DNA of 24,104 nt from Chromera velia (Eukaryota; Sar; Chromeraceae), in the NCBI GenBank assembly GCA_018398765.1, contig JAHBMJ010001947.1:1-24104 (forward strand), given 5' to 3'. Position 1 is the first letter of the stretch, and each line of letters starts with the position of its first letter. Both the position numbers and the translations under genes were made by a program. The notes beneath the pieces were generated by a model. That model searched no databases and was not told where the DNA came from. It saw only the letters and a list, made by a program, of their open reading frames with translations. Shown here in pieces: positions 1,452-11,430 of the stretch.

Positions 1452-2318
1452 ATGTCGTTGAACGCCTTTCTCCAAATCCCGGACTGTGGCTTCGTCACAT
1501 CGGAGTCTGGAGACGGGCGTGATGAGGAGGAGTTAGATGCTCAAGAAGTGGTGTGGAAAAGCGCCTAGAAGGCACTGTGCTTGTGCATCGACGCTGCAGA
1601 CACCTCTGCTTCCTCAGATAGAGCCAAGGATTGTAGAAAGCAATATATTAGACGAGACCAATGGTACGACCTTGAAGGTTGGCGGTGGCATATGGATTTT
1701 GACGATCGCCCAGCTGTAGGAGGGAAGAAGCCACGCATATACTTCAAGACGAAATGGTTTGACAAGGATCTGGACAGAGAGGAAGAGGGGGTAGAAATTT
1801 TCAGATGATTTGTTCTCGTGAAGGATGCAGAGCTTAAAGAGAATTTCGGGGCGATTCACTTTTCAGACACCCTGGCCACTGCCTCCTTTCCCATTCCCTT
1901 TTCTGCCCTGGAGTCCGTTTTATGGGACCCTAAAATGCAGAACAGGTGGTGCGGCTACACCAATCTGGACCCGAAGCTGAAGGTGAACAAGAATTTCGGC
2001 GCACCCGCCGGAGACAACCTCCGCACCTCGCAAGAAGTGCCATACATCAAGATGGTCCGCGTGCGGCATGTCAAACGTATGTGCGCATTGGGGTACACCA
2101 TGCTGCTCCTCTCCTGCCTCGCTGAGTCTGAGGATGGAAACATGTTGTAGTTTTGTGAGTGGACGTGTCTGTACATCTGTGAGGAGACGGAACCCTCCGT
2201 CCTTTCCTTTCTGAACGAAGTGATAAACCACAAGGATCGTAGGGGTCTCCCGATCTGTTTCCTCCGTGGCCTTATATTCAAGAAAGGGGGGGGTTCCAAC
2301 TCTGTCAGAGCGAATACG
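1452..2318 (+). pseudogene. Decayed upstream half of a probable MYND-finger gene
   Basis: One frame stays protein-like from the ATG at 1452 to the foldback element edge at 2318, broken only by TAG at 1566, TGA at 1806 and TAG at 2148. Segments between the stops are ordinary soluble protein, with stretches such as KTKWFDKDLDREEEG and LSFLNEVINHKDRRG. An eight-G run at 2286-2293 marks a possible slip: beyond it the neighbouring frame (reading FQLCQSEYGL) looks the more natural. I recognise no domain. The MYND frame at 3508-4188 starts immediately after the inserted element on the same strand, so I infer that the two were once one gene of roughly 500 residues. Alternatives are an unrelated pseudogene, or true exons separated by introns that bypass the stops. 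No clear intron borders flank the stops. Confidence 0.5.
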
Positions 2319-2344
2319 GCTTGCCTCGTCAGACATACAAACTC
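2319..2344 (+). repeat. Left terminal inverted repeat of the foldback-like element
   Basis: It begins GCTTGCCT and ends AAACTC. It pairs with 3481-3506 in reverse complement at 23 of 26 positions, with mismatches at repeat positions 9, 12 and 20. The two C/T mismatches are transitions. Confidence 0.65.
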
Positions 2345-2417
2345 TTAGAAATACTGCCTGGATAACCTTAGGGAAGTCTGAGTATATTTAAAGGAATGCC
2401 TAGGAGATTTAGGGTAC

Positions 2418-2516
2418 ATGCCTGGTGGACCCTAGGGGTCTCCCGGGCAAGTGCCTAGTAGACCCTAGGTACCATCTAGGCAAGTTCCTATCTTATCCTC
2501 GGCAGTCTCTTAGCAA
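2418..2516 (+). repeat. Left array of the 33-bp repeat (three units)
   Basis: Units are 2418-2450, 2451-2483 and 2484-2516, each exactly 33 bp and each ending in CAA. The first two share GCCT-GTGGACCCTAGG-like cores, while the third is more diverged. Degenerate copies appear on both sides (about 2345-2417 and 2517-2549). CTAGG/CCTAG half-sites recur. Confidence 0.75.
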
Positions 2517-2606
2517 CATCTTCAGTTTTTCTAGACAACATTAGCTGAGTTTTCAACTTTAAAAACGTAAGTAAAAGTATTTAATTGATGAATATTTACA
2601 GGAATG

Positions 2607-3176
2607 TCATGCCTGCGCTCGGTCAGGCATGTCTTCATCTCGCTCTGCCCCTGCTCTTTCATCGAGAAGCTCTGACTTATAGTATTCAGGAGAGCTGAAG
2701 AGCACCTTATCAGCCTTTGTTAGGGTTTCCATACTTTCTAAAAACCGAGTAACAGCGGACCATCTTGTAATATGAAACTCTGGCAAGGCCGCTTTGAGCG
2801 CTTTGATGTGGGAAGCTTGCCAAAACTGCACCAAGTAATCATTTGGAGACGCTTCACAAAGCTAATCCACCATTTATCCGTAGGTGTACTCTGTGTTCAA
2901 ACTCCCTCCATGGTGTTCTCTCCATTTTGACAAGGACTGAGCAAAAGCAACAATCTTATCTGGGGTGAACTGAATGCTGCCGTCTGTTTGTGCATCCTGA
3001 AAGAACGCTTGAGCGTCATCTGCTGACTGTGAAGGGGGCGGGAAAAATGCAATAAGGTCCCACCCAATTCTATACCCGTGTTTCCCAGTGAAAGTCTGAA
3101 ACCCACAACCTACCCCTGCATCAAGATCAAACCAGCCGTAGAGAGAACATTTCCTTTGTGTTCCATGTCGGTCCAT
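2607..3176 (-). pseudogene. Broken reading frame inside the foldback-like element, unknown function
   Basis: On the minus strand one frame runs from an ATG at 3176 to a stop at 2607. It is interrupted by TAA at 2874-2876 and by a TAG 9 nt further on. The first part (about 100 residues) is rich in aromatic residues, with stretches like KCSLYGWFDLDAGVGCGF. The second part contains HITRWSAVTRFLESMETL. I recognise no transposase catalytic motif. The TRW-x-AVTRFLE stretch is faintly like the C-terminal segment of hAT-type transposases, which is too little to assign. Its position between inverted repeats suggests that it encodes an element protein, now degenerate. It may instead be a captured host fragment. 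Confidence 0.45.
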
Positions 3177-3319
3177 GAGGTTGCCTTGAAAAAATATTTT
3201 GCATGCTGACTCTTAATGCTCTAAAATCATATTATGATTATTTCTACATAAGTATCATTATCTAACACCATTTTTTCAAAGAACTTTTTGTCTAAGCTTG
3301 CTTACGATAGGATAAAAAC

Positions 3320-3480
3320 TTATCTAGATGGTGCCTAGGAATGTTTTAGTGTTTACCCGGTAGCTTTCTAGGAGTTACTAGGCACTTGCCTGGTAAACCC
3401 CAGGTAGACTGCCTAGAAGACCTCCCAGTCTACTAGGCATATTCCCTAATCTACCTAGTAGTTTCATAGCATTTTACCGG
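3320..3480 (-). repeat. Right array of the 33-bp repeat, inverted
   Basis: In reverse complement, 3353-3385 and 3320-3352 are clear 33-bp units of the same family as the left array. The shared core in opposite orientation is GGCAAGTGCCTAGTA. Units between 3386 and 3480 are indel-damaged but keep the GCCTAGTAGAC core. Confidence 0.7.
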
Positions 3481-3506
3481 GAGTTTATATGTCTAACTAG
3501 GCAAGC
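3481..3506 (-). repeat. Right terminal inverted repeat of the foldback-like element
   Basis: The reverse complement starts GCTTGCCTAG and ends TATAAACTC, matching 2319-2344 at 23 of 26 positions. The protein-like MYND frame resumes 2 nt beyond it. Confidence 0.65.
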
Positions 3507-3507
3507 T

Positions 3508-4188
3508 GTGAAACTCGTACAGTGCAAGAATTCCGCCTGGCCCGAGCTGGACGAGGAACAGTGGGATCAGTGGACTCTTGAGGTGTCTCTGACACTCAAC
3601 AAAATCGCTTACGTATATTTCCAAAATATGAAACACCTCGACCTCTTTCAGATCATTCGCCGCTTTCCAATGGGCCCCACCCTTGGGGATGAAGCTCCCC
3701 CCCTTGCCCTAGGGGTCTGTCTTCTCCCCCCTCTCTGTGCTATTCAGTCATGCTACAAGTTCATGCCGTACACAGTTGACCCCCGACACCCCCAACTTCC
3801 CCCTAACTCGTGTTGCAATAAATGCGGTATTCTAACTGGGCAGGTGAAAACTATGTGCTGTGCTAAGTGCAAAGCACGCCGCTACTACAGTAAGGAATGC
3901 CAACTTGCCAACTGGCCGACTCACAAGCGGGAGTACAGGCTTTATATGCAGGTGTTTGGAAAGAGGAGCTCGGAATGGACCCCTGAGGTGGTCAAACCCT
4001 GTCACGAAGATTTCCAGACCCTCATGGAATCAAGCTTGCGAAAGAACATTACAGAGGAAGAAAAGGCCCAAGACCGGGCACAGATGGTTTCGTTTTTTGA
4101 GAGCATGAAGAAAGAGGGTATGTTGCCTGAGTGGGCCCACTTTGGAGGCTCCTGCACCGATTCGAGGTGTACTTGCTGTAACTCCTAA
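3508..4188 (+). pseudogene. MYND-type zinc-finger protein, 3' half, with two lost zinc ligands
   Basis: An open frame of 226 codons ends in TAA. It begins with GTG (no early ATG) directly at the edge of the foldback-like element, so the true N-terminus is missing. MYND fingers bind two zinc ions and mediate protein contacts. Counting from that GTG as residue 1, residues 103-143 follow the MYND pattern C-x2-C, C-x2-C, Y-C-x3-C, H-x3-C: C103, C106, C118, C121, C131, H139 and the Trp before the His are present. Two ligands are replaced by tyrosine, at residue 127 (codon 3886-3888, RRYYSKEC) and residue 143 (codon 3934-3936, HKREY). Each is one G-to-A step from a Cys codon. The second zinc site should therefore fail. 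The C-terminus ends in a Cys-rich CTDSRCTCCNS. The upstream half is probably 1452-2318. I judge it a decaying gene, but a divergent functional protein is possible. Confidence 0.65.
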
Positions 4189-6904: not shown

Positions 6905-7370
6905 TGTATGCTCTTCGGCTTCCTGTCTTCTGTCTCTCGCGCCTGTCTGTTTCTCTCTGTTTGTCTGGCTGCTCTCGCTTATCTCTGGCCGATTCTCTCT
7001 GTCTGCCTGTCTGCTCCCATTCGCCCCTAACTGATTCTCTCTATCCGGGTGGCTGCTCTCACTCGTTCCTAGCTGTGTCTCTCTATCCACCTGTCTGCTC
7101 TCACTCGCCCCTAACTGATTCTCTCTGTCTAACTGGCTGCTCTCACTCGTTCCTGGCTGTGTCTTGCTGTCTGCCTGTTTGCTCTCACTCACCCCTGTCT
7201 GACTCTCTCTGTCCGGCTGGCTGCTCTCGCTCGATTCTGACTATGTCTCTCTGTCTGCCTGTCTGCTCTCACTCATCCTTGTCTGTTTCTCTCCAGCTGC
7301 CTGGCTGCTCCCACTTACTTCCGACTGTGTCTTGCTTTCCGTCTGCCTACTCCCGCTGCCTCGGAGAGCT
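6905..7370 (-). repeat. 42-bp minisatellite encoding a 14-residue repeat inside the RT
   Basis: About ten units with the minus-strand pattern S-E-S-[SR]-Q-x-D-R-E-[TN]-Q-x-G-x, exactly 14 residues each. Two unit types alternate (SESSQ..N and SESRQ..T), giving an 84-bp higher-order period. The array is in the same frame as the RT on both sides. It carries one TAG, at 7231-7233. It lies between RT motifs B and C, where the polymerase fold normally tolerates only a modest loop. Confidence 0.85.
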
Positions 7371-8110
7371 TGGATGAGGGGGAGAATGGTGATGGCGTAC
7401 CCTGCCATCGACATCAGGTCCCCTTGCGTCTATCCCTCTCTGCTGCCGATGGTGGTGATCCTGTGGGTTCCTCTTAGAAAGAGCTCTGCATCCCCCCTAT
7501 AGCAGTTGAAGAGGAATGTGGAAGCTCTGGGCCAGAGTATGCGGGCATTCCACAGCCCTGCTGTGCGATTTGCTGCGTTGAAGGCGTTTTCAGCGTCTAT
7601 TAGGAGGGTTTTGAATGCCTTCTCGGGGTCGTCGCCGGCTTCCTGTGTGAGGGTCTCCCAAAGCTCCCTCACTGCATGAATTCCCCCTTCCAGGCCTCCC
7701 ATGAGGCCACTGCACAGCTGATCGGCTCCGCATGCCTCCTGCAGTTCCTCTCTAGTCTCCTTCATCACTGTTTTTCCGAGGGGGCGCCTGATCGCCTCCC
7801 CGATTCCTATCGGGTGCACGCTGAGGCATTTGTCTAGCGCGACTAGTCGGCATACCATGAATGCCTTCACCTGGTCCCACTCGAACACCCTCCTCCCCAT
7901 TTCTGTTGCTAAGTTTGCGAGTTCTTCCCTTAACTCTCTACTCTCCCTCCCTAGGCTCAGGACTGCGGTACAGAACTGTGTGCTATCGAATCTAGACGGC
8001 CCCGCACTACCTTGGAGGCGGTATGCTACTGTAGCGATGTCCTCTTCGGTGATTAGGAGGGGTGTGAGAGTGGGGTCCCACCGTGGGGAGGCCCTCTCTG
8101 GGCATCGCTT
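7371..8110 (-). pseudogene. Reverse transcriptase fingers and palm (motifs A and B)
   Basis: Minus-strand reading gives PTLTPLLITEEDIATVAYRL, GSAGPSRFDS, then LVALDKCLSVHPIGIGEAIR and PLGKTVMKE, the fingers of this RT type. Motif A is LLIDAENAFNAANR, with the catalytic Asp codon at 7595-7597. Motif B reads SREG-stop-TQGD, where the TAG at 7430-7432 replaces the residue before TQGD. The frame then continues AGYAITILPLIQALRG into the 14-residue repeat. Upstream, near 8070-8110, the frame shifts by one relative to LKAKHPPGKTPQ. The three catalytic Asp residues survive, but the gene cannot give a full RT. Confidence 0.85.
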
Positions 8111-8874: not shown

Positions 8875-9390
8875 TGCGGAGCCTCGCGTGGAGGGCCCCT
8901 TTGGTCTTCTCCTGCTGCTGTTTAGCTATGTAGGGGGCCTCGGCTGTCTTCTCCTGCTGCTGTTTGGCTGTGTGGGGAGCCTTGGCCATCTTCTTCTGCT
9001 GCTGTTTGGCTGCACGGGGGGCCTCGGCCGTCTTCGCCTGCTGCTGTTTGGCTGTGCGGGGGGCCTTGGCCGTCTTCTCCTGCTGCTGTTTAGCTGCGCG
9101 GGGGGCCTCGGCCGTCTTCTCCTGCTGCTGTTTGGCTGTGCGGGGGGCTTTGGCCATCTTCTCCTCCTGCTGTTTGGCTGTACGAGGGACCTCGGCCGTC
9201 TTCTCCTGCTGCTGTTTGACTGTGTGGGGTGCTTTGGCCGTCTTCTCCTGCTGCTGTTTGGCTGCGTGGGGGGCCAGGCCCTCGGCCATCTTCTCTTACT
9301 GTTGTTTGGCTGCATAGGGGGCCTTGGCCGTCTTCTCCTGCTGTTGTTTGGCCATGCGGGGGGCCTTGGCCATCTTTTTCTGCTGCGGCT
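8875..9390 (-). repeat. 42-bp minisatellite encoding a KQQQEKTA-type 14-residue repeat
   Basis: At least nine full units, plus two or three more upstream, read KQQQEKTAxAPRxA on the minus strand, each 42 bp. The predicted product is a lysine/glutamine/alanine-rich helix, possibly coiled coil. One upstream unit has TAA in place of the third Gln codon (near 9300). Leucine- and cysteine-rich plus-strand translations are artefacts. Confidence 0.85.
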
Positions 9391-10559: not shown

Positions 10560-11430
10560 GTACCCCTTTGGGCGGGTGGGGGTCTCGGCTGGTGTGTCAC
10601 TGAGGCTTTCGGGGGTTTGCGTGTGTGGGGGGGNNNNNNNNNNNNNNNNNNNNNNNNNNNNNNNNNNNNNNNNNNNNNNNNNNNNNNNNNNNNNNNNNNN
10701 NNNNNNNNNNNNNNNNNNNNNNNNNNNNNNNGGGGGGGGGGGGCCTTATGTATGTAGGGTGAGTGTTTGTGAGGGTGCTGGTAGTTGGAAGGGGGCTGCC
10801 TCTGGGGTATCACTGAAGCTTTCTGGGATTTATGGGTGTGTGTGCATATGTGTGCATGTATGCGAAGTAGGTGGCTTCAGAGGTTCTGGTGGTTGGAAGG
10901 GAGATGCCTCTGGGGTGTCGCTGAGGCTTTCTGGAGTCTGTGAGTGTGTGTGCTTGTGTGTGTATGTGTATGTGGGGTAGGTGGCTTTGGGGGTTCTGGT
11001 GGTTGGAAGGGGGCTGCCTCTGGGGTATCGCTGAGGCTTTCTGGGGTCTGTTGGTATGTGTGCGTGTGTTTGCGTATATGCGGGGTGGGTGGCTTCGGGG
11101 GTTCTGGTAGTTGGAAGGGGGCTGCCTCTGGGGTGTCGCTGAGGCTTTCTGGGGTCTGTGGGTGTGTATGCTTGTGTGTGTGTATATGTGGGATGGGTGG
11201 CTTCGAGGGGTTCTGGTGGTTGGAAGGGGGCTGCCTCTGGGGTGTCGCTGAGGCTTTCTGGGGTCTGTGGGTGTGTGTGCGTGTGTGTGCATGTATGCGG
11301 GGTGGGTGGCTTCAGATGTTCTGGTAGTTGGAAGGGGGCTGCCTCTGATATGTCGCTGAGGCTTTCTGGGGTCTGTAGGTGTGTATGCTTAATATGTGTG
11401 TGTGTGGGTAAGATGGGTTTCTTCGGGGGT
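10560..11430 (-). repeat. 108-110-bp tandem repeat encoding a Pro/Thr/His-rich 36-residue unit
   Basis: Copies of GGCTTTCTGGGGTCTG and GGAAGGGGGCTGCCTCTGGGGT recur about every 108 to 110 bp; GCTTTC occurs at about 10605, 10818, 10926, 11036, 11144, 11253 and 11361. On the minus strand units read DPRKPQRHPRGSPLPTTRTP or the neighbouring frame TPESLSDTPEAAPFQPPEP. Unit lengths not divisible by 3 make the frame drift. The spacing across the assembly gap (213 bp) fits two units. Confidence 0.85.
10634..10731. other. Assembly gap (98 N)
   Basis: The run of N lies inside the 108-bp tandem repeat and is flanked by G-runs. The array length across it is uncertain. Confidence 0.99.

Follow-up and report, generated by a model that had tools for sequence, protein, structure and literature searches.

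A mobile element with inverted arrays of an 11-bp repeat in Chromera velia, probably an internally deleted cut-and-paste DNA transposon

On a contig of 24,104 nucleotides from Chromera velia (hereafter the window, analysed at its full length; contig C1942), a short stretch with inverted repeat arrays at both ends lies inside a host reading frame, which raises the question of what kind of mobile element it is and how it may have moved. A sequence-only reading had labelled it a Foldback-type element. Comparison with related copies in the assembly (177.8 Mb in 4,040 contigs searched) points instead to a cut-and-paste DNA transposon that is non-autonomous, carries an internal deletion and behaves like a deletion derivative of the dSpm/CACTA kind, a reading to which we give a probability of about 0.6. 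The coordinates of the features are collected in Table 1.

Limits, genome copies and target site

A genome pattern search allowing up to three mismatches found 40 ends of the window type (family 1) on 24 contigs, and none with the reversed control pattern. These pair into 16 two-ended copies of 792–1,772 bp, plus 8 single ends, and the copies stop where the window copy stops, as had been predicted from the window alone. The imperfect 30-bp terminal inverted repeats (TIRs) open with CACGGCTTGCC (CACGG) in most family-1 copies; the first bases are CA in 33/40 ends and TA in 7/40. The 26-bp inverted repeat of the sequence-only reading is real, being the inner part of this TIR, and the element extends 4 bp past it at each end, to 2315 and 3510 rather than 2319 and 3506. 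Between copies, the 250-bp ends are on average 93.7% identical (90.0–96.8%). Over both 250-bp ends, the differences comprise 3,215 transitions versus 527 transversions, counted over non-independent pairs, a bias that may reflect cytosine deamination or methylation. One family-1 copy, on C148 (L081), contains 390 N bases, and 357 bp of its interior are 91% identical to a stretch ~3.4 kb outside a family-4 element on C3003; another repeat may be present in this interior. Scans of the window against Rfam and for tRNAs returned no matches.

Table 1. Positions, strands and supporting evidence of the features described in the window
Feature	Position	Strand	Description	Evidence
Element copy, putative non-autonomous DNA transposon	2315..3510		1,196 bp	genome copies share both limits
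Left TIR	2315..2344	+	30 bp, TACGGCTTGCCTCGTCAGACATACAAACTC	family-pattern search of genome
Right TIR	3481..3510	-	30 bp, 25/30 identical to left TIR; read inwards CACAGCTTGCCTAGTTAGACATATAAACTC	family-pattern search
Target site duplication, left copy	2313..2314		AA	2-bp flanks identical in 15/16 two-ended copies
Target site duplication, right copy	3511..3512		AA	same 2-bp flank comparison
Left subterminal array	2397..2517	+	~eleven 11-bp units, CCTAGG-like core	autocorrelation; limits by eye
Right subterminal array	3306..3460	-	~fourteen 11-bp units, opposite orientation	autocorrelation; limits by eye
C-terminal remnant of element-borne protein pA	2610..3176	-	two in-frame stops	frame reading, pA comparisons
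Internal deletion junction	3177..3178		common to five other copies; ~560 bp of the C484/C810 form absent	copy comparison
Host reading frame left of insertion	1818..2314	+	in-frame stop 2148-2150	same frame as 3513-4188 once joined
Host reading frame right of insertion	3513..4188	+	MYND zinc finger ~3814-3933	Pfam zf-MYND, E 1.1e-6

With the C of CACGG taken as base 1 of the element, the 2-bp flanks on the two sides are identical in 15 of the 16 two-ended family-1 copies, compared with 25 of 240 mismatched pairs, and the 3-bp flanks in none of the 16; the sole copy without matching flanks is that on C1976. Flanks of the copies on C2789 and C3222 agree over 4 and 6 bp, owing to short repeats at the insertion site. 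The 15 target site duplications (TSDs) comprise five TA, two AT, two TG and one each of AG, TC, GT, CA, GA and AA, showing a 2-bp target duplication with little sequence preference. A Tc1/mariner-type element with TA targets would share the 2-bp length and the five TA sites, but it is contradicted by the ten duplications that are not TA and is the least probable of the readings considered.

Empty sites with a short duplication, from which the sequence-only reading had hoped for support, were found for a relative and not for family 1 itself. Among the fetched family-1 loci none was seen, the only matches that span a join being tandem-repeat matches around C2521, and in the assembly search the joined flanks of the window copy match only the window itself; the short duplication stands at the 15 copies just described. 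Exact empty sites are available for a related family-2 element on C2000 (779 bp, ends CATGGTTTACCC and CACGGTTTGCCC, a remnant of the element-borne protein pA inside, TSD TT), which is nested in a repeated retroelement gene with a Copia-type reverse transcriptase by eye. When its flanks were joined with one TT kept, 20 places matched across the join at 87–94% identity among 40 rows scored of 65 candidates; two other scored rows are C2000 itself and 18 are a more distant relative (68–70% identity). All seven sites read out of the 20 are uninterrupted and exact, one of them with a base change adjoining, so the C2000 duplication is TT.

The host frame broken by the window copy codes for a MYND finger and also contains stops of its own. 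This frame is continuous across the site once the element and one AA are removed, and because element plus duplication amount to 1,198 bp, which is not a multiple of three, the insertion shifts it. Upstream, the joined frame contains three in-frame stops; the break in the host gene may therefore predate or postdate the insertion, or the upstream part of the gene may contain introns. A position within a coding frame that closes without the element and one TSD could also be expected of a spliced, introner-like element that leaves the host gene working despite the insertion, and introners bearing direct as well as inverted repeats have been described from Amoebophrya (PMC7789003). However, the exact ends lack GT..AG and the host frame also has the three upstream stops, on which grounds this highly improbable reading was rejected. 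Elsewhere in the window, tandem repeats with 42-bp based periods lie at 8904–9386 and 6922–7354, and open frames on both strands overlap them; an array of a 108-bp unit at 10773–11390 is close to a stretch of N bases (which translates to X); and a 156-aa minus-strand frame at 7433–7900 resembles a reverse-transcriptase fragment by eye and matches nothing in Pfam at E 0.01.

Subterminal arrays of an 11-bp repeat

Inside each end, ~120–155 bp are occupied by an 11-bp repeat with a CCTAGG-like core. These stretches had been described as inverted arrays of a 33-bp unit; they are inverted, and periodic beyond chance, but the 33-bp unit proves to be three turns of a diverged 11-bp repeat. The match fraction at 33 bp is 0.49 in the left arm (z 6.4) and 0.42 in the right arm (z 4.6), and the match is raised at lags of 11, 22, 33 and 44 bp in both arms, giving a basic period of 11 bp. 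Averaged over these four lags, the match is 0.401 in the left arm (0.247 shuffled) and 0.364 in the right arm (0.254 shuffled), with 0/1000 shuffles as high in either case, versus 0.251 in a 500-bp interior stretch (0.250 shuffled; 460/1000 as high). Broken into lines of 11 bp, the left arm gives TGCCTAGGAGA, TTTAGGGTACA, TGCCTGGTGGA, CCCTAGGGGTC, then TCCCGGGCAAG, TGCCTAGTAGA, CCCTAGGTACC and ATCTAGGCAAG, with further lines after these, and one motif of the 11-bp type lies inside the TIR near position 8. The units are diverged, and Tandem Repeats Finder does not list them. The inverted symmetry on which the sequence-only reading had staked its case is well above chance: the 210-bp arms align with a local score of 42, the highest score among 500 dinucleotide shuffles being 21, and with a score of 31 against a shuffle maximum of 21 once the 30-bp TIR is removed.

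A 33-bp subrepeat corresponds to three helical turns of an 11-bp site, and a protein could therefore dock along a single face of the helix in each arm. Weaker 11-bp tendencies, in stretches chosen by eye and with no multiple-test correction, are seen in family 4 (left 1/1000, right 0/1000 shuffles as high), where a 12-bp base fits the left stretch equally well, and, on the same terms, in family 2 (left 3/1000, right 1/1000). A search of the open-licence literature gave no match for a transposon with 11-bp helical subterminal inverted repeats. For transposons in Chromera, the same literature led only to the paper on Amoebophrya.

Variable numbers of 33-bp units between copies, which had been expected of a Foldback-type element, are not borne out. 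The left arm measures 210–217 bp in 16/16 copies and the right arm 260–265 bp in 15/15 measured, the right arm on C3511 not having been located and being ~16 bp short by alignment. Inverted arms with tandem subrepeats beyond chance do favour a Foldback-type element, and the 2-bp TSD alone does not exclude one, because Foldback structure may arise in several superfamilies; most Foldback elements are described as Mutator-derived. TSDs of 8–10 bp are common in Foldback rather than strictly defining: 8–10 bp are described for Tetris, and mostly 9 bp, together with a variable repeat number, for Tm1. Here, however, the TIR spans only ~30 bp, and because the arm length is constant and the TSD is 2 bp, a classical Foldback element is rejected and the label itself is very unlikely to be right. 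What holds of the earlier description is a mobile element with inverted subrepeat arrays, and the Foldback call gives way to a better-supported architecture.

Internal deletions, proteins and related families

Family-1 copies have both arms in common and differ in the middle, with several different internal deletions. The copy on C3275 retains 3,047 bp from the left end, where the match ends; this left part and the right end of the copy on C663 together imply a putative parent of ~3.4 kb, which is a composite and not an assembled sequence. An identical deletion junction is present in six copies (the window and C2789, C2521, C1976, C1367 and C3511), and a CCTCGTC variant in the left TIR occurs in 6/6 junction-sharing copies and 0/10 others. 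On the simplest reading, one deletion would have arisen once and then been copied to six places with different flanks. That one junction and one end variant recur at six sites argues that the deleted form was mobilised in trans.

The putative parent has two coding areas on opposite strands, pA on the minus strand and pB on the plus strand. In the window, the internal frame is broken, as had been noted: the 189-codon minus frame 2610–3176 has stops at codons 101 (TAA) and 105 (TAG). In longer copies, pA continues upstream through acidic, proline-rich and RG-rich stretches. A search with pB gave 7 rows, spread over 5 contigs that all carry family-1 ends. The pA core from C3003 gave 32 rows up to E 1; beyond family 1 the matches fall on 17 contigs, and 14 of these contigs match at E 0.001 or better. 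An invariant YGW marks a core found also in C3003, C2000, C1035 and C3873. Over four divergent members 18 columns are invariant, including one aspartate and one glutamate; beside the YGW these include R260, D264, Q294, G299, W330, L331, P335 and W343 (C3873 row numbering). Between element ends, pA is found in four TIR families, namely family 1, family 2 (C2000), family 3 (C454:78646-79844) and family 4 (C3003). Its C-terminal side faces the nearer TIR, ~295–365 bp away, in families 1, 3 and 4, the C-terminus being deleted in family 2. Pack-type capture, in which pA would derive from a host gene, was rejected because four TIR families contain pA, though not fully, given that the open-frame relatives on C1035 and C3873 may lie outside elements; in ~1,020 bp downstream of the open pA frame on C1035, no convincing TIR was seen.

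The internal protein had been described as carrying no recognisable motif, and no transposase motif was found in the remnant or in the longer copies. Against Pfam, pA, pB and other frames have no significant relative apart from zf-MYND in the host gene, the TRAPP14_N match (E 7e-4) being below its own cut-off and on low-complexity sequence; pA likewise has none in PHROGs (one member searched) or the PDB (best E 0.78 and 0.3). The profile search for a transposase fold that the sequence-only reading had proposed for 2607–3176 (minus) thus returned only chance-level or below-cut-off matches in Pfam and the PDB. A predicted fold of the window pA remnant, made without an alignment, is unreliable (mean pLDDT 47.5).

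Two rival readings give pA or pB a different role. The first is a separate, undescribed lineage with CAYGG ends and 2-bp TSDs in which pA itself would be the core transposition protein. It draws on pA being the only protein that recurs between the families read, on the orientation of its C-terminal side towards a TIR ~295–365 bp away in families 1, 3 and 4, and on its lack of a significant Pfam, PHROGs or PDB match. However, the conserved core is short, the single aspartate and glutamate among its invariant columns offer no obvious DDE triad, and the open-frame relatives on C1035 and C3873 may lie outside elements, so that we regard this reading as doubtful. The second would place the element in the PHIS group (PIF/Harbinger-ISL2EU-Spy), with pB or pA as the second, DNA-binding protein. 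The opposed pA and pB coding areas of the 3.4-kb parent would suit such an arrangement. Some members of the group make 2-bp TSDs. A PHIS lineage whose TSDs are TA is described in PMC12730594. Yet TA accounts for only 5/15 duplications here and the rest vary, neither pA nor pB has a Myb/SANT match in Pfam, and the CA..TG ends suit the CMCT clade (CACTA/EnSpm-Mirage-Chapaev-Transib) better; PHIS membership is unlikely.

For families 2 and 3 combined, 34 ends were counted: 10 are single, two form a pair 16.0 kb apart, and the others make up 11 two-ended elements (601–1,842 bp, including C2000). The ends of the family-4 element on C3003, with TSD GG and CCTAGG-type repeats, were found by self-comparison. 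The widely spaced pair consists of two family-3 ends facing each other (G000:C3765:11074-27068) and could represent an autonomous element or a pair of one-ended copies. None of the copies read yielded a transposase. Neither PF02992 (EnSpm-type, searched to E 0.001) nor PF18759 (Plavaka, searched to E 1) matched anywhere in the genome. Of their controls, that for PF02992 gave no signal in any of the 14 control genomes and that for PF18759 a signal in one only, below its cut-off, so that the empty result is no evidence of absence.

Proposed mechanism and comparison with known transposons

In the favoured reading of a non-autonomous deletion derivative, a transposase made elsewhere would cut the CA..TG ends and join them to a target at positions staggered by 2 bp. 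The two ends would be paired by a helper protein, most likely pA, bound to the helix-phased 11-bp sites in each of them, a role modelled on that of TNPA, which binds the subterminal repeats of Spm/En. The internal deletions would come from incomplete gap repair, a process that generates internal deletions in other DNA transposons, and because the ends are kept, the deletion derivatives could spread in trans. A broader proposal, which we hold as a tentative possibility, is that of an undescribed eukaryotic DNA transposon lineage with CAYGG ends, 2-bp TSDs, 11-bp helix-phased docking arrays, an orphan pA that would be end-binding or even catalytic, and autonomous copies of maybe up to 16 kb.

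The closest parallels are plant CACTA/EnSpm deletion derivatives such as dSpm and Tgm, which, as described in passages of PMC2613891 and PMC8978399, have CAC..GTG ends with a short TIR, subterminal repeats in both orientations, and internal deletion derivatives that keep their ends. Subterminal repeats, TNPA and trans-mobilised deletion derivatives all figure in the CACTA account of PMC2613891, and in the C. velia element, too, the subterminal repeats are inverted between the two ends. By contrast, the pentamer here is CACGG and not CACTA, with 7/40 ends beginning TA; the TSD is 2 bp, whereas EnSpm families are stated to make a 3-bp TSD (PMC12730594); and the 11-bp-period subterminal motif and the orphan pA differ from CACTA/EnSpm, no tnpD/tnp2 transposase having been seen in the copies read. 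For the CMCT clade as a whole, the same source gives 5'-CA..TG-3' termini 'in most cases' and TSDs of 2–5 bp (PMC12730594), with which the CA start of 33/40 ends and the 2-bp TSD agree, while the clade-defining DDE transposase with C(2)C and H(3-4)H motifs was not found in the copies read. The subterminal repeats and deletion derivatives fit this clade too, and by its ends and TSD the element would be placed nearest it, as a resemblance rather than demonstrated membership. It has neither the CACTA pentamer nor a 3-bp TSD and yielded no defining transposase, and on these grounds it is not filed as a CACTA or CMCT member.

With Foldback, Tetris, Tm1 (Mutator-type) and Galileo (P superfamily), the C. 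velia element shares inverted ends with tandem subrepeats, and differs from them in its short TIR, constant unit number and 2-bp TSD. In Galileo, such subrepeats are described as containing transposase binding sites (PMC3688188). How end-binding proteins and subterminal repeats evolve together is a question posed in the soybean CACTA study (PMC2613891), and four TIR families with one orphan protein form a comparative set for such co-evolution.
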